Source: a bacterium (GTDB taxonomy: Bacteria > Cyanobacteriota > Vampirovibrionia > Gastranaerophilales > UBA9971). Taken from it: DNA of 17,236 nucleotides. This document shows, in pieces, positions 6,421 to 15,215 of this stretch (positions are counted from its first letter, which is position 1; the number at the start of each line of letters is the position of its first letter). The stretch spans positions 1-17,236 of the forward strand of contig JBAWVS010000055.1 in the NCBI GenBank assembly GCA_037147175.1. The letters run 5' to 3'. The position numbers and the translations under genes are program-made. The notes below the pieces were generated by a model, which ran no database searches, was not told where the DNA came from, and saw only the letters and a list, made by a program, of their open reading frames with translations.

Positions 6421-6969
6421 ATGGAATTTGTACAACCGTTACGTGAAAAAAATTGTATCGAAAAAGTTAAAAATATTTTACTTAAAAATGGTTATCGGGA
6501 TTATTTATTATTTGTTGCAGGAATTAATACAGGTTTAAGAATATCGGATTTATTGAAATTGCGTGTATCGGATGTGAAAGATAAATCACATATTGAGTTT
6601 AGGGAAACTAAAACGGGCAAGAACAAGCGTTTTTATATCTCTCCTACACTTAAGACCTGCTTCGATAATTACACGTCTTCTATGACCTCCAGCGAGTTCC
6701 TTTTTCAGAGTCGCAAGGGAATTAATAAACCGATTACAAGAGTACAAGCGTACAAAATTATTAATGATGCCGTAAAGTCTACAGGATTATGCGATAAAAT
6801 CGGTACTCATACTTTAAGAAAGACTTTTGGATATTGGCATTATCAACAATTTAAGGATATTGCTGTATTGCAGGATATTTTTAATCACTCTGCTCCTTCT
6901 GTAACTCTTCGTTATATAGGGATTAATGACGATATGAAAGATAAAACTATTGCTGAATTTGCTTTGTAA
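6421..6969 (+). CDS. Compact tyrosine recombinase (catalytic domain only)
   Basis: This 182-residue protein is a phage-integrase/XerCD-type catalytic domain with the full set of active-site residues: R40 in TGLRISDLL, K64 in RETKTGK, H130 and R133 in THTLRKTFG, H156 in FNHS, and the nucleophile Y165 in LRYIGI. The N-terminal SAM-like core-binding domain of full integrases (usually about 300 residues in total) is missing. Compact versions are known on plasmids and in small elements, where they resolve multimers or invert DNA. I chose ATG 6421 because AAGGAG lies 9 bases upstream; the in-frame ATG at 6397 has none. A decayed homologous segment lies at 13839-13889. Confidence 0.85.
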   Translation: MEFVQPLREKNCIEKVKNILLKNGYRDYLLFVAGINTGLRISDLLKLRVSDVKDKSHIEFRETKTGKNKRFYISPTLKTCFDNYTSSMTSSEFLFQSRKGINKPITRVQAYKIINDAVKSTGLCDKIGTHTLRKTFGYWHYQQFKDIAVLQDIFNHSAPSVTLRYIGINDDMKDKTIAEFAL

Positions 6970-7039: not shown

Positions 7040-7585
7040 TTAACCGTCTTTGTCCTCTACCTTAAAGCCTATTGCCTTTGTAGCAGGTGTTTTAGTAAGC
7101 TCTGAAAGTTGCTTCAACTGTAGAAAAATATCATTAATATCGGCACTTGTATCTTTTGCATATAACATGAAGCGACTTTCAAGCTCATCATACCTTTGAG
7201 ACAATTCTTTGTTTGTCAAAGCGAACTCTTTAAGTTTTACAAATATTTTTATTATCTGAATATTTACTGCTATCGCTTGCTTACTCTTTAGCACACTGCT
7301 CAACATCGCCACCCCATGCTCATTAAAGGCATATGGATTAGTTGTAGAAAATTTAATAGTTTGGAGGCGGTCGCAATTTGCGACCAGCTCATTTTTCTCA
7401 TTATCATTAAGCTGGAACATAAATTCTGACGGAAACCGCTCAATATTACGCTTAACAGCCTCATTAAGTCTCTTTGTATCGACTCCGTAAAGCTCTGCTA
7501 AGTCTCTATCAATCATAACTTTTTGATTGCGGATGACAAATATCTTATTTTCTATTACATCTATCGAAATAATATTATTATCCAT
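7040..7585 (-). CDS. ORF6N-domain (phage antirepressor-type) protein
   Basis: This 181-residue protein has a clear N-terminal ORF6N domain (about 8-100): KIFVIRNQKVMIDRDLAELYGVDTKRLNEAVKRNIERFP, then SEFMFQLN and YAFNEHGVAMLSSVL. A helical, coiled-coil-like C-terminal part (about 110-165) follows. ORF6N/KilA-N proteins are DNA-binding antirepressors or regulators common in prophages and mobile elements. AAAGGG lies about 5 bases upstream of the ATG. It lies downstream of the XRE gene on the same strand (gap about 100 bases), so an XRE repressor/antirepressor pair is plausible. The pairing is inference. Confidence 0.85.
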   Translation of the reverse strand: MDNNIISIDVIENKIFVIRNQKVMIDRDLAELYGVDTKRLNEAVKRNIERFPSEFMFQLNDNEKNELVANCDRLQTIKFSTTNPYAFNEHGVAMLSSVLKSKQAIAVNIQIIKIFVKLKEFALTNKELSQRYDELESRFMLYAKDTSADINDIFLQLKQLSELTKTPATKAIGFKVEDKDG

Positions 7586-7684: not shown

Positions 7685-7900
7685 TCATTTTAAATCAAAA
7701 TCAAAGAAATATTTTAATGAAATATCGAGTGTTTCACATAACTTAACGAGTGTAGAAAGTCGGGGTTCTTTTAGCCCACGCTCGATTTCACTTAATCCGC
7801 CTTTAGAAATACCGCTCTCATAAGCAAGTTTTTCTAACGTAAGTTTTTGCTCTTGTCTGAGCTGTGTAATTCTGTTACCTACCTGTATATTTAAACTCAT
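7685..7900 (-). CDS. XRE-family (Cro/CI-like) transcriptional repressor
   Basis: This 71-residue protein is a single HTH_3 domain: GNRITQLRQEQKLTLEKLAYESGISKGGLSEIERGLKEPRLSTLVKLCETLDISLKYFF. The recognition helix lies at about 30-42 (ISKGGLSEIERG) and the domain fills the protein, so effector sensing or peptidase activity is absent. Two GTTCA-N6-TGAAC palindromes lie 21 and 74 bases upstream of its start, fitting autoregulation. The Shine-Dalgarno is weak (AAGGGG about 14 bases upstream). It is probably the master repressor of the neighbouring mobile-element genes, though targets beyond its own promoter are not shown. Confidence 0.85.
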   Translation of the reverse strand: MSLNIQVGNRITQLRQEQKLTLEKLAYESGISKGGLSEIERGLKEPRLSTLVKLCETLDISLKYFFDFDLK

Positions 7901-8136: not shown

Positions 8137-8150
8137 CCCCCCCCCCCCCC
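8137..8150. repeat. 14-base poly-C tract
   Basis: There are fourteen consecutive C in an otherwise AT-rich spacer, 159 bases upstream of the chemoreceptor ATG, in the 8001-8309 gene-free stretch. Homopolymer runs of this length slip during replication and commonly cause phase variation. Here the tract is upstream of the reading frame (a stop in frame lies at 8214), so any effect would be on transcription or the mRNA leader. Confidence 0.85.
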
Positions 8151-8309
8151 GAAACCTTGATTATACCTGAGAAAAAGAGTACAGTATATTACATATCTTT
8201 ATTAAAACTATTTTAAAACAATAAATTTATATCTTTCGTGTCTTATTTAGCTGTGTTTAGAAGAAAATATAGAGTTGTCGTGTCAGTATTATTTGAAAGG
8301 GTGGCTATT

Positions 8310-10022
8310 ATGCAGTGGTTTAAGAATTTTAAGATTTCGCAAAAGATCTTGGCGTTTGTTGCAATGGCAACATTATTTATTTGTATTGTCGGTTATGTCG
8401 GATTTCATTTCACCACAAAAGGTGCAAACGATATGACAGCTATTTACAAAGACAGAGCACTACCTATGATGTGGATGTATGATGCTGTCGGCAATGTTAA
8501 CAACATAGAAGCTCTTATTAATGAAATAAATGCAACATCCGATAAAAATACACAAAAAGCAATGTATGATGAAATTGTTGCAAACAGAGAAGACAATAAT
8601 AAAATACTGGCGGAATATGAAAAAACAAAGCTTGACCCTTTTGAACTCAAAACATTGGCAGAATTAAAAAATAACCTTCAGGAATACAGTGTTGTTCAGA
8701 CAAAAACTATTGATATGGGAATGAACGGCAATAGAAACGAAGCCGAAAAATATTTTCTGTCTAACATAGATGCGGCCCAAAAAGTAGGTGATAATTTTAA
8801 AGCTCTTGCAGATTACAATGCTAAAGTTGCCAAGGAGTTGAATACTCAAAATGACAAAGATGCAGCAGAAGCAGTCGCTCTTATAATAGGAATTATTGTT
8901 GTGGCAGTGGTACTTGCTGTATCTATCGGATTAATGATCGCAAGTATTATTTCTAAGCCGATAAACGCTGTAGTAGAAAACTTAAATGAAGTGGCTAAAG
9001 GAAATCTTGCAATTGATGAAGTTCATAATGATTCTAATGATGAAACAGGAATCCTTGCAAAATCGCTTAATCTTACCGTGAAAAACCTTAGAGCACTTAT
9101 CGGTACAGTTTCTAAATCAATTGAAGAAATTTCTGCAAATTCCGAAGAAATGAGTGCTTCATCTGAACAAACGGCACAAGGAGCTCAACAGACAGCAACC
9201 AGCACTCAACAGTTAGCTCAGGGTGCTCAGGAAATTTCAAGAAATGTTGAACTGGGGGCTACAAGCATTAACGGTTTAAATAAAACCATTCAGGGTGTTG
9301 CTCTGGAAGCAGGCGTAGTAGCTAAACTTGGTAATGACACAGAAACAAATGCTAATGTAGGTGCTGAACACGTTAAAAAGGCAGTGCTTAAAATAGACAG
9401 CATCAAAAATGTTGCTGGTGCTATCTCCATTAATATTGCCGAACTCGGAAAATTAAGTTCAGACATTGAGCAAATCGTTGATTTAATTAAAAATATTGCA
9501 GGACAAACCAACCTTTTAGCCTTAAATGCTGCTATTGAAGCTGCCAGAGCAGGAGAACACGGAAAAGGCTTTGCTGTAGTGGCAGATGAAGTCAAAAAAC
9601 TTGCAGGACAATCAGCAGGAGCAACAGAAAAAATAACAGCTATGATTAAAGAAATTCAAAATAAAACGCATATCGCCGTAAATACTATGGATAAAGCAAC
9701 TAAAGAAGTTGAAGAAGGCGTGTTTGTAATCAACGATGCAGGAAAAGCACTAGATAATATTATTTCTCAGGTAAAACAGGCTAATAATAAAATACAGGGT
9801 ATCACTAAAGATATAGACGGAGTCGCTGTCAGCTCAGAAGAAGTTTTAAGAATGGTTGAAAATATTTCCGCTATAACAGAAGAAACGGCTGCAAGTGCGG
9901 AAGAGATTTCAAGCATTACCGAAGAACAAACAGCGAGCCTTGAAGAAATAAGCGCAAGCTCTCAAACACTTGCTAAAGTTGCTGAAGACTTACAAAAACA
10001 GGTTTCTGTATTTAAAATTTAG
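8310..10022 (+). CDS. Methyl-accepting chemotaxis protein (4HB sensor, HAMP, signalling domain)
   Basis: This 570-residue transmembrane chemoreceptor has TM1 at about residues 13-34, a helical extracytoplasmic sensor of 4HB_MCP type at about 35-188 (ALPMMWMYDAVGNVNNIEALI near its start), TM2 at about 189-214, HAMP at about 212-265 (ISKPINAVVENLNEVAKGNL), and the long signalling coiled coil. The kinase-control tip lies at 398-432 (GQTNLLALNAAIEAARAGEHGKGFAVVADEVKKLA region). It relays ligand state through CheW to CheA. I chose ATG 8310 because AAAGGGTGG lies 5 bases upstream and the protein then begins with a normal TM1; the GTG at 8238 has no such site. No CheR-tethering pentapeptide is seen (it ends QVSVFKI). 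It is the first gene of the MCP-hemerythrin-CheW operon, 10 bases before hemerythrin. Confidence 0.92.
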   Translation: MQWFKNFKISQKILAFVAMATLFICIVGYVGFHFTTKGANDMTAIYKDRALPMMWMYDAVGNVNNIEALINEINATSDKNTQKAMYDEIVANREDNNKILAEYEKTKLDPFELKTLAELKNNLQEYSVVQTKTIDMGMNGNRNEAEKYFLSNIDAAQKVGDNFKALADYNAKVAKELNTQNDKDAAEAVALIIGIIVVAVVLAVSIGLMIASIISKPINAVVENLNEVAKGNLAIDEVHNDSNDETGILAKSLNLTVKNLRALIGTVSKSIEEISANSEEMSASSEQTAQGAQQTATSTQQLAQGAQEISRNVELGATSINGLNKTIQGVALEAGVVAKLGNDTETNANVGAEHVKKAVLKIDSIKNVAGAISINIAELGKLSSDIEQIVDLIKNIAGQTNLLALNAAIEAARAGEHGKGFAVVADEVKKLAGQSAGATEKITAMIKEIQNKTHIAVNTMDKATKEVEEGVFVINDAGKALDNIISQVKQANNKIQGITKDIDGVAVSSEEVLRMVENISAITEETAASAEEISSITEEQTASLEEISASSQTLAKVAEDLQKQVSVFKI

Positions 10023-10032
10023 GAATCCGACA

Positions 10033-10437
10033 ATGTTAATTAAGTTTGATGATTCCTTATTAACAGGGATTACGGATATAGATATTCAGCATAAGTATCT
10101 GTTTAATGCAATAAATAGCCTTGAAGATATTGATAATCACGAAGAACAATTGCGTTTTGCTATTTGTGATATTGAAGAGTATGCCTCTGAACATTTTAAA
10201 ACAGAAGAACAATATATGGCTGAATGTAAATATCCTGAAACAGAAGAGCATATTAAAGAACATCAAGAATTTTCTGAAAACTATAAAGCATTACAATCAA
10301 TATTGGACAAACATGATGTTTCCGATGACTTCCTTATTGAGTTAAAGAGCTTTTTAGCAAACTGGATTGTAAAGCACTATACAGAAATTGATGTCAAAAT
10401 GGCTAAATTTATTAAATATTCGTATAAAAAATCATAA
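10033..10437 (+). CDS. Bacteriohemerythrin, O2-binding di-iron protein
   Basis: This 134-residue single-domain hemerythrin has every ligand of the non-heme di-iron site: H20, H54 and E58 (HFKTE), H73 and H77 (HIKEH), and H115 with D120 (HYTEID). The N-terminal FDDSLLTGITDIDIQH is typical of bacterial hemerythrins. It binds O2 reversibly, and related proteins also react with NO. ATG 10033 is chosen because GGA lies just upstream and the domain begins directly there. It starts 10 bases after the receptor stop and ends 12 bases before cheW, so it is translationally linked to chemotaxis and is probably the oxygen-responsive component or a buffer near the receptor. Confidence 0.92.
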   Translation: MLIKFDDSLLTGITDIDIQHKYLFNAINSLEDIDNHEEQLRFAICDIEEYASEHFKTEEQYMAECKYPETEEHIKEHQEFSENYKALQSILDKHDVSDDFLIELKSFLANWIVKHYTEIDVKMAKFIKYSYKKS

Positions 10438-10449
10438 AGGAGACTTACT

Positions 10450-10977
10450 ATGGCTTCAGTCGATACAGAAAGTGATGAACTACAGCTTATAGCATTTAAA
10501 CTGGGCAATGAAGAATACACCGTGCCGATAGAAAGCGTTCAAGAAATTATTATGCCTCAGCAAACTACTCACATCCCAAAATCCCCTCAATTTGTAGAAG
10601 GGATTATAAATCTCAGAGGTCATATAATCCCTATAATTGACGGAAGAAAAAGATTTGACATAAAGGTTACTGAAAATAATGCAGACACAAGAGTCATTGT
10701 GCTTGAACTTGATGACCATACAGTAGGCTTAATCGTTGATTCCGTTTCGGAAGTCGTTCATCTTAAAAAGAGCAATATTGAACCGTCCCCGACAGAAAAT
10801 GACGAAAACAGCTTTATAGTCGGAGTCGGAAAACATCAAGACAGGCTTCTTTTATTATTAGATGCTTCTAAAATTCTTGATATAAAAGAGACTGAGCATA
10901 TAAAACAAACACTGGAAGCCGTGAATAAGATTTCAAAACTACAGGAAACAATAGCCGAAGCGAATGTCAGCGTTTGA
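10450..10977 (+). CDS. cheW: CheW coupling protein
   Basis: This 175-residue protein is a CheW domain (about 10-155): LIAFKLGNEEYTVPIESVQEII, the arginine-containing receptor/kinase-binding stretch FVEGIINLRGHIIPIIDGRKRF, then DSVSEVVHLKKSNIEPSP and FIVGVGKHQDRLLLLLDASKIL. It couples chemoreceptors to CheA. A short helical tail follows (156-175), longer than the minimal CheW. AAGGAG lies 8 bases upstream. It is the last gene of the MCP-hemerythrin-CheW operon. No CheA is present in the window, so the cassette must feed the host's chemosensory array. Confidence 0.92.
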   Translation: MASVDTESDELQLIAFKLGNEEYTVPIESVQEIIMPQQTTHIPKSPQFVEGIINLRGHIIPIIDGRKRFDIKVTENNADTRVIVLELDDHTVGLIVDSVSEVVHLKKSNIEPSPTENDENSFIVGVGKHQDRLLLLLDASKILDIKETEHIKQTLEAVNKISKLQETIAEANVSV

Positions 10978-10986
10978 AAATCTTAT

Positions 10987-11036
10987 AATTTAATGAACAA
11001 TGACAAGAGGTTTCCGACTTAAATTCAGTAACAAGG
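10987..11036. repeat. 50-bp direct repeat, copy A
   Basis: This stretch matches 13955-14004 in 44 of 50 positions, in the same orientation, including runs ATGAACAATGA and AAATTCAGTAACAA. It begins 9 bases after the CheW stop. The two copies bracket about 2.9 kb holding the IS256 element, the exported protein and the MerR-like gene. It is too long and too diverged for a target-site duplication. Confidence 0.7.
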
Positions 11037-11057: not shown

Positions 11058-11097
11058 AAACCTCCGAAAATACGTATAGTAGAAAACGGAGGTTTTT
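11058..11097 (+). terminator. Rho-independent terminator of the chemosensory operon
   Basis: AAACCTCCG (11058-11066) pairs perfectly with CGGAGGTTT (11087-11095), ending in TTTTT (11093-11097). The loop is 20 bases. It lies 80 bases after the CheW stop. The sequence just before it (TTTTGTGTAAAC) resembles the ends of some IS256-family elements. Confidence 0.75.
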
Positions 11098-11297: not shown

Positions 11298-11365
11298 GAG
11301 GGGTATGGCACAGAACCTCCTAACTGTCTTTTGTATCGTAAAGAACAAAAAGCGGGACCTTAAGA

Positions 11366-12716
11366 AATTTTATTGATTCTCCGATAAAAAAAGAAGAGAA
11401 AAATTAATCGGAGGAACAAAGAATGTCAAAGTTATTTACAAAGGAACAAGCAAGAAAATTTCTAAAAGAAGGAAATTTTAAAAATGCAGAAGGCATAGCA
11501 AGCGCCATAAAAGAAAGTTTCAAAGAAGTATTGCAAGAAGCCCTTGAAAATGAGCTTGAAGAAGAGCTCGGCTATTCTCGATATGATTGGGCAAACAAAA
11601 ATACAGACAACAGCAGAAACGGTCATCATAAAAAGACTGTTCGCTCAGAGTTCGGCAAAGTGGAACTTGATATTCCGCATGATAAAAAAGGCGAATTTGA
11701 GCCTGTCATCGTGCCAAAGAACTCAAGAGAAGTATCTCCGAGCATAAATGATATGATAATTTCAATGTATGCCAAGGGAATGACAACTCCCGATATTCAT
11801 TTTCATATGCAAAAAATATACGGGCTTGATATTTCAGAAGATTTAGTTTCAAAGATAACGGATAAAATCCTTCCGAAGGCAAAAGAATGGCAAAAAAGAC
11901 CGCTTGATTCTATTTATCCGATAGTCTATCTTGACGGAATGGTTTTCAATGTTGTAGACAACGGCTCTGTCGTGAAGAAAACGGCATATATCGTTTACGG
12001 AGTGAATACAGACGGGCATAAAGATATTCTGGGCATTTGGATAGGAGAAGCCGAATCTTCAAAATTTTGGATGTCAGTTTTGTCTGACCTCAAAGAACGA
12101 GGGGTAGAAGATATTCTTATTGCTTCAATAGACGGATTAACAGGATTCAAAGACGCAATTAAGGCAGTTTTTCCCAAGACAGAAATCCAAAGATGCATTG
12201 TTCATCATATCAGAAATTGTACAAAGCACGTTGTACATAAGGACAGAAAAGAATTTTGCAGCGATATGAAGCCTATTTACAAGGCAATAAATGAAGAAGC
12301 GGCAATTGAAGCTTTTGATGAATTTTCGGAAAAATGGAAAGCCAAATATCCTTATGCAATAAGGTCTTGGAACAACAATTGGAATGAACTTATGGCTTTT
12401 ATGAAATTTCCCGCTGAAGTCAGGAGGCTGATTTATACCACAAACCCCATAGAAGCTTTTAACAGGGGCGTAAGAAAAATTACAAAGTCCAAAACTTCTT
12501 ACAGAACTGACGATAGTCTTTTTAAAATCTTATATCTTGCATCTATTGATATACTTGATAAATGGACTATGCCGCTTCAAAACTGGAGTTTGATTTTTAA
12601 TCAATTAGTGATATATTTTGAGGGAAGAATTTAAAAGATGATAATTTCTCCTTACAAAAAAATTATCATCTCAAACAAAAAGTATAAATTTAATTTTTAT
12701 CAGAATCAAAAGAATT
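11366..12716 (+). mobile_element. IS256-family insertion sequence, candidate ends
   Basis: An imperfect terminal inverted repeat frames the transposase. AATTTTATTGATTCT (11366-11380) matches the reverse complement of 12702-12716 in 13 of 15 positions. After a two-base gap (CC on the left), GATAAAAA continues the match inward (11383-11390 with 12694-12701). The resulting length of about 1.35 kb is typical for IS256 elements. No convincing 8-9 bp target duplication is visible beside these ends, so the boundaries are provisional. Confidence 0.5.
11423..12634 (+). CDS. IS256-family (mutator-type) DDE transposase
   Basis: This 403-residue protein is a full-length IS256 transposase (family about 390-410). 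The catalytic acidic residues sit in the family contexts: D171 in YLDGMVF, D237 in ASIDGLTGF and E344 in TTNPIEAFNRGVRK. The IQRCIVHHIRN motif at 255-265, between the second D and the E, is also diagnostic. The N-terminal region (SRNGHHKKTVRSEFGKVELDIPHDKKGEFEP) binds the ends. GGAGG precedes the ATG. The reading frame is intact, so the element may be active. A hairpin (12637-12670, 11-bp stem) follows the stop inside the element. Confidence 0.95.
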   Translation: MSKLFTKEQARKFLKEGNFKNAEGIASAIKESFKEVLQEALENELEEELGYSRYDWANKNTDNSRNGHHKKTVRSEFGKVELDIPHDKKGEFEPVIVPKNSREVSPSINDMIISMYAKGMTTPDIHFHMQKIYGLDISEDLVSKITDKILPKAKEWQKRPLDSIYPIVYLDGMVFNVVDNGSVVKKTAYIVYGVNTDGHKDILGIWIGEAESSKFWMSVLSDLKERGVEDILIASIDGLTGFKDAIKAVFPKTEIQRCIVHHIRNCTKHVVHKDRKEFCSDMKPIYKAINEEAAIEAFDEFSEKWKAKYPYAIRSWNNNWNELMAFMKFPAEVRRLIYTTNPIEAFNRGVRKITKSKTSYRTDDSLFKILYLASIDILDKWTMPLQNWSLIFNQLVIYFEGRI

Positions 12717-12729
12717 ATTTAAAATCCCC

Positions 12730-12772: not shown

Positions 12773-13306
12773 TTAATTACTAAAAACTAATTCTCTATCT
12801 GTTTTAATCGGAACGATTGAACCAGCAGGAACTATCGTATCTTTACCTCTAGGAGCTACGAACAATAAAGATATAGGAAGAAATAATACAGAAGCTACAA
12901 CAATAGGTATAAATTTGTTGCTATCTGGGTCAAATCTGTCGGTAGCATGTTTTTCCACAACATTAGAAACAGGGATTATTTTTCCACTTGCTAAATTAAT
13001 AGATGTTAATTGGATACCGACTCTTCCATTAGTTCCAAAGTAAGTTTTTGATTCCACGGAGGATACTGTGCCCTTTACCTTTGAGCCTTTTGGAATAACT
13101 ACTGCATCGTTAACGGTTACATCGTCTGCAATAGACATATCAACTCTTTGTCCAACAACACTATCTTTTGAAGACAACTGACTGTTTACAATTAAATTGA
13201 TTGGAGTTCCTGGGTCTAATACCAAATCTTTTGCCAAAGTAATCGGACAAACGAATACGTTAACGAGAGTCACTAATAAACCAGTGACGAAAACTTTTTT
13301 CAACAT
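12773..13306 (-). CDS. Exported beta-rich protein of unknown role
   Basis: This 177-residue protein has a clear signal peptide (MLKKVFVTGLLVTLVNVFVCPITLAKD, cleaved near residue 26; no lipobox). The mature part carries a repeated small-beta pattern seen in many periplasmic proteins: LDPGTPINLIVNSQLSSKDSVVGQRV, VVIPKGSKVKGTVSSV, GRVGIQLTSINLASGKIIPV, and at the end a hydrophobic segment (FIPIVVASVLFLPISLLFV, about 132-150) followed by DTIVPAGSIVPIKT. The IPKGS turn resembles the VirB10/TrbI beta domain, but the protein is far shorter and no secretion genes are near. ATG 13306 is chosen: a TTGACA-17-TAAGAT promoter at 13344-13372 rules out the longer frame, and GAAAGG lies 8-9 bases upstream. 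Confidence 0.7.
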   Translation of the reverse strand: MLKKVFVTGLLVTLVNVFVCPITLAKDLVLDPGTPINLIVNSQLSSKDSVVGQRVDMSIADDVTVNDAVVIPKGSKVKGTVSSVESKTYFGTNGRVGIQLTSINLASGKIIPVSNVVEKHATDRFDPDSNKFIPIVVASVLFLPISLLFVAPRGKDTIVPAGSIVPIKTDRELVFSN

Positions 13307-13343
13307 AGACAACGACCTTTCTAAAAAATACACCAACAATTTT

Positions 13344-13372
13344 ATCTTAGATGATGTCAATATATTTGTCAA
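13344..13372 (-). promoter_or_regulatory. Sigma-70-type promoter of the exported protein
   Basis: On the minus strand this reads TTGACA (13372-13367), a 17-base spacer and TAAGAT (13349-13344), giving a start near 13337 and a leader of about 30 bases. TGTCAATAT occurs twice (13355 and 13367, 12 bp apart), overlapping the -35, and could be a regulator site. Confidence 0.6.
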
Positions 13373-13838: not shown

Positions 13839-13889
13839 ACCTTTAGATATTGGCATTATCAACAATTTAAAGACGTTGCGGTATTCTAA
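13839..13889 (+). pseudogene. Relic of a second tyrosine recombinase
   Basis: Sixteen codons, TFRYWHYQQFKDVAVF and then a stop, match residues 135-150 of the recombinase at 6421 (TFGYWHYQQFKDIAVL) with 13 identities. Several DNA differences are silent, so the source was a diverged functional gene rather than a recent copy. The catalytic HTLR before it and the Tyr after it are absent. The fragment directly follows the MerR-like stop codon. Confidence 0.75.
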
Positions 13890-13954
13890 TATTATTTTAG
13901 TTAAATATGACGTTGTAAATAGTTATAATGAATTGTTAAATAAGGTTATGCACT

Positions 13955-14004
13955 AATTTGATGAACAATGATAAGAAGTTACCGACTCAAATTCAGTAAC
14001 AATG
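13955..14004. repeat. 50-bp direct repeat, copy B
   Basis: This is the partner of 10987-11036 (44 of 50 matches, same orientation). Its right end overlaps the last codons of the minus-strand gene at 13993-14277. It lies 66 bases after the recombinase relic. Confidence 0.7.
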
Positions 14005-14503: not shown

Positions 14504-14818
14504 TTAAGCAATTTTTGTTAAAAGTTTAAATTGAACTTTAAACCCTAACGAATTTAATATTTTTAAAACTGAATCCATTGAAGGATTAATTTCATTTTTA
14601 AATATTCTGTAAAGCTGCTTCCTGTTGAATTTATTTTTTTCTGAAAACTCACTAACAGAGGATTTTGACTTAACAAGATGTTCAAGAGCTATACAAAAAG
14701 CTGCTATATCACCATCGTTCATATATTCATCAATAGAGGCATTAAGATAGGCTTCTGCTTCTTCGGGATCTTTTAATAGCTCAATTATATAATCATCCAT
14801 ATTTTTATATTTTCTCAT
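14504..14818 (-). CDS. higA: HigA-like antitoxin (addiction module antidote family)
   Basis: This 104-residue protein carries an XRE-type HTH at about 53-90 (SVSEFSEKNKFNRKQLYRIFKNEINPSMDSVLKILNSLGF) behind an N-terminal DDYIIELLKDPEEAEAYLNASIDE, the standard opening of the putative addiction-module antidote family. It neutralises the upstream RelE-type toxin and should repress the operon. It overlaps the toxin by 14 bases and has a perfect AGGAGG 5 bases before its ATG, in contrast to the leader-less toxin, which favours excess antitoxin. A terminator follows at 14456-14480. Confidence 0.85.
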   Translation of the reverse strand: MRKYKNMDDYIIELLKDPEEAEAYLNASIDEYMNDGDIAAFCIALEHLVKSKSSVSEFSEKNKFNRKQLYRIFKNEINPSMDSVLKILNSLGFKVQFKLLTKIA

Positions 14819-15215
14819 TTTTACCTCCTTTATTTATTTTATGTAACCAATCGAAGATTGTTTCTTTCATTAAAGGATTTCTAAACTTATAATCTTGCCA
14901 GTACTCTTTTGCTTTTGATATATCCTTGTTTTGACTGTCTTTATCTCCTGCTACAAGAAATAATATAATGTCTTTTCCATTTTCTCTTATATAAATTCTT
15001 GTACCACCTGGATCAAAAAATCTTAATTCTCTTATAAGATCACTATTTGCCCCTTTAATAAATGGGCAATCTCCAAAATTACCAAGCCTAACACGTTGTA
15101 ATCGTGTTAATACCATCATTCTTGTTTTCCGATCAGTACCTGCAATCCATTCTAAAAAAGGTTGCCGATCATTCTCGGTTGAATAAGGTATAAGATTTTT
15201 CTCATTTACTATCAT
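14805..15215 (-). CDS. higB: RelE/HigB-superfamily toxin (addiction module killer protein)
   Basis: This 136-residue protein belongs to the phage-derived Gp49-like/HigB branch of RelE/ParE toxins. It has FLEWIAGTDRKTRMMVLTRLQRVRLGNFGD (20-49), then LIRELRFFDPGGTRIYIRENGKDIILFLVAGDKDSQNKDISKAKEYW (60-106) with the diagnostic GdKdSQ-kDI-KA motif. Such toxins cut mRNA on the ribosome. The C-terminal 25 residues (about 112-136) extend beyond the usual length of about 110. It is the first gene of the operon, in the toxin-first order typical of HigBA. No Shine-Dalgarno precedes the ATG and the promoter -10 is only 7 bases away, so the mRNA is probably leaderless. Confidence 0.88.
   Translation of the reverse strand: MIVNEKNLIPYSTENDRQPFLEWIAGTDRKTRMMVLTRLQRVRLGNFGDCPFIKGANSDLIRELRFFDPGGTRIYIRENGKDIILFLVAGDKDSQNKDISKAKEYWQDYKFRNPLMKETIFDWLHKINKGGKNEKI

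Follow-up and report, generated by a model that had tools for sequence, protein, structure and literature searches.

A chemoreceptor, hemerythrin and CheW operon on accessory DNA and its possible role as a two-part oxygen receptor

Introduction

Why does the gene for a free hemerythrin lie between those for a membrane chemoreceptor and a CheW protein, and does its product belong to the receptor? The question is raised by contig C55, a stretch of 17,236 nucleotides (the window) from a 2.66-Mb genome that is assembled in 109 contigs, is 99% complete and contains three hemerythrins, with 10 matches to the CheW domain and 12 to MCP, 11 of the latter over the family cut-off. We compared the window with the rest of its genome, with related genomes and with plasmid and phage DNA. 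The reading that we prefer, at a probability of about 0.42, is that the operon encodes a two-part O2 receptor, a two-gene counterpart of the DcrH type with a CetAB-like function; O2 binding by the hemerythrin, its contact with the receptor and an effect on taxis would all follow from this reading as predictions.

Anatomy of the operon

The features of the locus are collected in Table 1. The preliminary description reported a tight triplet of receptor, hemerythrin and CheW, all seven iron ligands of a hemerythrin and a shared terminator, and each of these observations is confirmed. The receptor matches 4HB_MCP_1 (2.7e-37), HAMP (1.3e-7) and MCPsignal (4.6e-44) and has the TM-4HB-TM-HAMP-MCP signal architecture of 4HB-MCP transducers; the hemerythrin matches Hemerythrin (6.1e-12); and CheW, a stand-alone CheW domain protein, matches PF01584 (1.2e-39) over residues 12-144 of 175. 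The genes are separated by gaps of 10 bp (10022/10033) and 12 bp (10437/10450) and are followed by a single hairpin with a U run, which has a folding energy of -16.4 kcal/mol (z -4.2) and was missed by a consensus scan because of its long loop. From this arrangement, the three genes are predicted to be transcribed as a single operon.

The hemerythrin passes the cut-offs for TIGR02481 and NF033749 and has the attributes of the PF01814 family, a four-helix bundle with five His, one Glu and one Asp; its iron ligands (H20, H54, E58, H73, H77, H115 and D120) are invariant in an alignment with four other bacterial hemerythrins. The AF2 model has a pLDDT of 86.9, and the closest solved folds are those of DcrH-Hr, with a TM of 0.87.

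Table 1. Positions of features in the window
Feature	Position	Strand	Basis or remark
ORF6N	7040-7585		left of cassette
XRE	7685-7900		left of cassette
14-C homopolymer	8137..8150	+	159 bp 5' of receptor ATG; candidate length-variable control tract
Limits of DNA homology to the C72 MCP-CheW pair	8265..10991	+	sensor and hemerythrin excepted
Membrane chemoreceptor, 570 aa	8310..10022	+	Pfam; TM1, 4HB periplasmic sensor, TM2, HAMP, 44-heptad-class signalling domain
Putatively exchanged sensor stretch of receptor, aa 43-160	8436..8789	+	comparison with C72
Bacteriohemerythrin (Hr), 134 aa, seven diiron ligands	10033..10437	+	Pfam, alignment, AF2 model
CheW, 175 aa	10450..10977	+	Pfam; 89% identity to C72 CheW
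Intrinsic terminator, hairpin and U run, ending the three-gene operon	11058..11096	+	folding
Complete single-copy IS256-family element	11354..12728	+	transposase 11423-12634; imperfect terminal inverted repeats; 8-bp target duplication CAAAAAGC

Origin from a receptor-CheW pair

Another contig of the same genome, C72, carries an MCP and CheW pair with a 39-bp spacer where the window has the hemerythrin gene. The two receptors are 75% identical overall and 95% identical across the signalling part, the two CheW proteins are 89% identical, and DNA homology extends from 45 bp 5' of the receptor ATG (8265) to 14 bp past the CheW stop (10991). The dS between the copies is approximately 0.73 in both genes, with dN/dS of 0.055 for the receptor signalling part and 0.077 for CheW; the low ratios at equal dS indicate a single duplication, after which the function of both the C55 and the C72 copies was preserved. 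Judged by sequence, the window receptor and CheW are a diverged duplicate of the C72 pair.

The sensor departs from this pattern: residues 43-160 are 22% identical, and the stretches on either side reach 85% and 80%. A receptor in a related genome (G001, contig C34) has a sensor that shares 47% identity with the C72 sensor, and the signalling parts of the C55 and C72 receptors are each other's closest matches. This mosaic points to a sensor swapped through recombination rather than simple drift, with the caveat that sensors diverge fast throughout the family.

Three further pairs with receptors of this family and the same order of receptor then CheW (C77, G001 C41 and G012 C130) likewise have no hemerythrin between the genes, so that the history is most simply explained by an insertion in the C55 lineage. 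The repeated unit is therefore receptor plus CheW, and the hemerythrin a lineage-specific insertion whose probable source is the stand-alone clade: in the hemerythrin tree, the window protein groups with stand-alone hemerythrins and apart from the MCP-fused proteins (moderate support, 0.67-0.90), its nearest neighbor being a protein of genome G023 with 40% identity. The preliminary description viewed the triplet as a plug-in unit that travels without CheA; receptor and CheW do recur in this manner, but the hemerythrin was added to one copy and is not a member of the unit. The re-tuning of a host's array to O2 or NO, which the description ascribed to the module, would be a prediction.

The hemerythrin could also have arrived by chance, as a passenger in the MCP-CheW spacer, leaving an operon that is simply a receptor with an exchanged sensor and its CheW. 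We consider this unlikely: its reading frame, its ligands and the ribosome-binding site ahead of CheW are all intact and both gaps are short and tidy, although a passenger would fit the single occurrence of the triplet among all genomes examined, the accessory neighborhood with its recombinase remnants and IS, and the base composition of the hemerythrin gene, which at 28.6% GC is more AT-rich than the receptor and CheW genes at 36-37%.

Comparison with fused hemerythrin receptors

The same genome encodes a fused MCP-hemerythrin (C53; L001 590-2254) that adjoins flagellar genes and is conserved in two other genomes (G001 C80 and G007 C48). Its MCP part ends in SVFK and leads straight into the hemerythrin, in the order of the window genes, and VFK and the TG motif of the hemerythrin are 15 residues apart in C53, a spacing that the window matches with 15 codons when counted in the hemerythrin frame. 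DcrH of Desulfovibrio vulgaris shares with C53 and the window this order of MCP part then hemerythrin, with the same hemerythrin fold and ligands, and has a periplasmic domain and HAMP as does the window receptor. In DcrH and C53, however, the two parts are fused, whereas the hemerythrin of the window is a separate gene of the stand-alone clade, with its own ATG past the native stop of the receptor; it is not covalently C-terminal to an MCP domain, as in the DcrH type.

The frame relation invites a further explanation, in which the ribosome shifts by +1 at AUU UAG G and so makes a single fused protein, or in which the split is only apparent and due to an assembly indel. The receptor stop is at 10020-10022, the hemerythrin ATG follows 10 bp on in the +1 frame relative to the receptor, and the hemerythrin frame is open for approximately 27 codons 5' of this ATG; the linker of such a fused product would equal that of C53 exactly. 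Against this, the receptor ends in VFKI followed by the stop exactly as do its unfused paralogues C72, C77, C5, C30 and C94, which identifies the stop as ancestral, and no known shift signal was identified at the site, making a fused product very improbable. Fission of a formerly fused MCP-hemerythrin gene was also considered and is rejected, the receptor stop being the ancestral one.

A possible two-part oxygen receptor

The kinase through which the receptor would signal can be predicted from its class. Exactly 154 residues (22 heptads) follow the hairpin tip in the receptors of C55, C72, C77, C5, C30 and C94, which by this residue count belong to the 44-heptad class; the C29 receptor, which adjoins another CheA, differs from this count. 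In G012 C130, an MCP of the family, CheW and CheA are contiguous, and this CheA is 54% identical to the CheA of C2 in the window's genome. On the strength of this contiguity, the C2 CheA, encoded elsewhere in the genome, is the likely kinase partner of the window receptor and CheW.

In the reading that we prefer, the operon is a duplicated MCP-CheW unit; a stand-alone hemerythrin gene would have entered its spacer, and the periplasmic sensor would have been exchanged. Receptor and CheW would enter the existing 44-heptad array of the host, run by the C2-type CheA/CheW. The hemerythrin, produced from the same message, would bind O2 or report redox state at its cytosolic diiron site and act on the cytoplasmic end of the receptor, such that the 4HB signal is integrated with that of O2.

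This two-part receptor is consistent with the short gaps and single terminator, the purifying selection on the receptor signalling part and CheW, the intact ligands, DcrH-Hr as the nearest fold, and the presence of the fused C53 in the same genome. Several observations argue against it: the C72 receptor, with its 95% identical signalling part, has no hemerythrin; the C55 and C72 signalling parts differ at a few dispersed positions, which form no obvious new surface for docking; the hemerythrin belongs to the stand-alone clade; no second triplet was found in the genomes examined; and the receptor retains its own sensor, unlike CetA.

CetA/CetB of Campylobacter and Magnetospirillum is the known system closest to such an arrangement in two genes, likewise combining a membrane MCP with a small cytosolic redox-sensing protein encoded alongside. 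Bipartite CetBA receptors interact and mediate an aerophobic response, and Magnetospirillum CetBA2 shows that a membrane receptor can be driven by a small cytosolic redox protein from a separate, neighboring gene (PMC12442639). The systems differ in that CetB is a cytosolic PAS-FAD sensor and the window partner a hemerythrin, in that CetA lacks the sensor domain that the window receptor has, in the missing CheW of the Cet pair, and in that contact with the MCP is established for Cet but only predicted for the window hemerythrin.

The main rival to the two-part receptor is an unlinked O2 buffer: a cytosolic protein that stores or scavenges O2 in protection of the cell or the array and shares only a promoter with the receptor, making no contact with it. 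In its favor, the hemerythrin belongs to the stand-alone clade, one of the two other hemerythrin genes of the genome encodes a free single-domain protein (C1), and Campylobacter hemerythrins protect iron-sulphur enzymes, according to a passage of PMC9665402 that refers to Kendall 2014. We nevertheless judge it somewhat unlikely, as it leaves unaccounted for both the location of the gene at exactly this point of a tight operon, with receptor on one side and CheW on the other, and the parallel with the fused MCP-hemerythrin of the same genome. The preliminary description had argued that a 4HB sensor outside the membrane forces the hemerythrin into a role as buffer or cytosolic partner. That argument falls, since DcrH joins a periplasmic domain and a C-terminal cytoplasmic hemerythrin in one protein (PMC9388753) and the genome itself encodes a fused MCP-hemerythrin; the 4HB sensor is thus no argument against a receptor role.

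The cassette is well preserved and its gene order is unusual, with parts that are known; it is a variant of the known hemerythrin chemoreceptors if its partners interact. If the hemerythrin works with the receptor in trans, the components of O2 sensing by hemerythrin receptors could be gained and lost one gene at a time, and a two-gene arrangement would be a plausible precursor of the fused MCP-hemerythrin receptors. According to PMC9388753, how the signal passes from hemerythrin to MCP in DcrH is still to be settled, and a separable hemerythrin partner would make it testable. C72 and C55 form a natural experiment with and without the hemerythrin: their signalling parts and CheW proteins are almost alike, and C55 differs in having the hemerythrin and another sensor.

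Distribution of the triplet

Hemerythrin matches are present in 13 of the 40 nearest genomes (the window's own included), and at the loci examined in these, the window excepted, no MCP and CheW lie beside a free hemerythrin; only fused MCP-hemerythrins were seen. Nor was a triplet found within flanks of approximately 1.5 kb on each side of the best hemerythrin matches in samples drawn from the phylum (292 genomes) and from the class (382 genomes). The survey rests on matches passing an E-value threshold, covers two genomes of the same genus that are approximately 80% complete, and reaches other phyla through nine close hits. With no second triplet found, there is no conservation of gene order to which evolutionary weight could be given. 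The preliminary description named a triplet at the same chromosomal place in all relatives as a refuting result, and this was not found; the triplet has no conserved place and is absent from the relatives examined.

The plasmid, phage and IMG/VR records yielded no triplet either. In plasmid DNA, matches are limited to the conserved MCP tip, with no triplet. Hemerythrin-like genes occur in 19 plasmid records, and the three that we opened contain two MCP-hemerythrin fusions (Deferribacter pDF308 and Azonexus) and one isolated gene. Among four CheW-bearing plasmids opened, those of Methylosinus, Photobacterium and Sphaerotilus have che clusters that include CheA, and that of Deferribacter has several CheW-domain genes; none resembles the receptor-hemerythrin-CheW unit of the window. 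A phage search yielded no triplet, and the viral contigs of IMG/VR gave no match for the hemerythrin, CheW, the helicase or the upstream DNA.

The accessory setting

The contig also carries a DnaB/primase-like ATPase (absent from both same-genus genomes, which are approximately 80% complete), a replication-initiator-like protein, ArdC, a short tyrosine recombinase, the remnant of a second recombinase and a MerR regulator, and the setting of the cassette is accessory DNA. A check for circularity found no terminal overlap between the contig ends. Adjoining toxin-like (phrog_3445) and HI1420-like antidote genes lie at 14504-15215.

The XRE and ORF6N genes on the left and the IS256 element on the right, taken earlier as the bounds of the cassette, are present as described, but the IS256 is not a boundary in any mechanistic sense: a single copy with its own 8-bp duplication CAAAAAGC, it is an independent insertion and no part of the operon, and we reject it as the mobilizer. 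Its insertion has interrupted a terminator-like hairpin next to the gene at 12773-13372. Mobility as a cassette finds no support, as the IS256 is unrelated and no flanking repeats suggestive of transposition or integration, whether the IS copies of a composite transposon or the att repeats of an integrated cassette, enclose the operon.

Two direct repeats are present. The copies of a 49-bp repeat (10986-11034 and 13954-14002; 90% identical), the only two in the genome, lie on the same side of the operon; the first begins where C72 homology ends and is possibly a recombination site. A 47-bp repeat (6823-6869 and 13839-13885; 87% identical) encloses 7 kb that include the cassette, and is a coding remnant, its second copy being part of the tyrosine recombinase gene remnant. 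The occurrence of this recombinase-gene repeat on both sides of the cassette suggests that both sides are part of one element.

Repeat tracts upstream of the receptors

By pattern matching, on which all genome-wide repeat counts are based, the 14-C tract upstream of the window receptor is the sole run of C or G of at least 10 in the 2.66-Mb genome; it is a candidate for either a phase-variable tract or an assembly artefact. A chimeric assembly at the poly-C was considered, and the recombinase-gene repeat on both sides suggests a single element instead. The C72 receptor is preceded by an (ACTCTT)9 array that ends approximately 240 bp 5' of its ATG. Elsewhere in the host genome, 123 kb contained no similar repeat, and in 313 kb, mostly from related genomes, the sole further instance was the end of the same array on contig C81.

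That each of the two accessory receptor-CheW units has a long repeat on its 5' side suggests control through variable repeat length. Helicobacter pylori tlpB, in which a long C/G homopolymer is similarly located 5' of a chemoreceptor gene (PMC8295292), offers a loose precedent; its variable G-repeat is the target of an sRNA (RepG) in the mRNA leader, whereas in the window the C strand is involved and the tract is 159 bp away. That the window holds a two-gene hemerythrin chemoreceptor, a diiron counterpart of CetAB, on accessory DNA and switched by the length-variable poly-C upstream, is an extended version of our reading that we regard as improbable.

The (ACTCTT)9 array is confined to the start of C72 (L035 1-54) and the end of C81 (L199 6907-6963), and with the array common to both, the two contigs probably abut there. 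By inspection, phage morphogenesis and tail-fibre-like genes lie 3' of the C72 receptor-CheW pair (L035 3128-8962).
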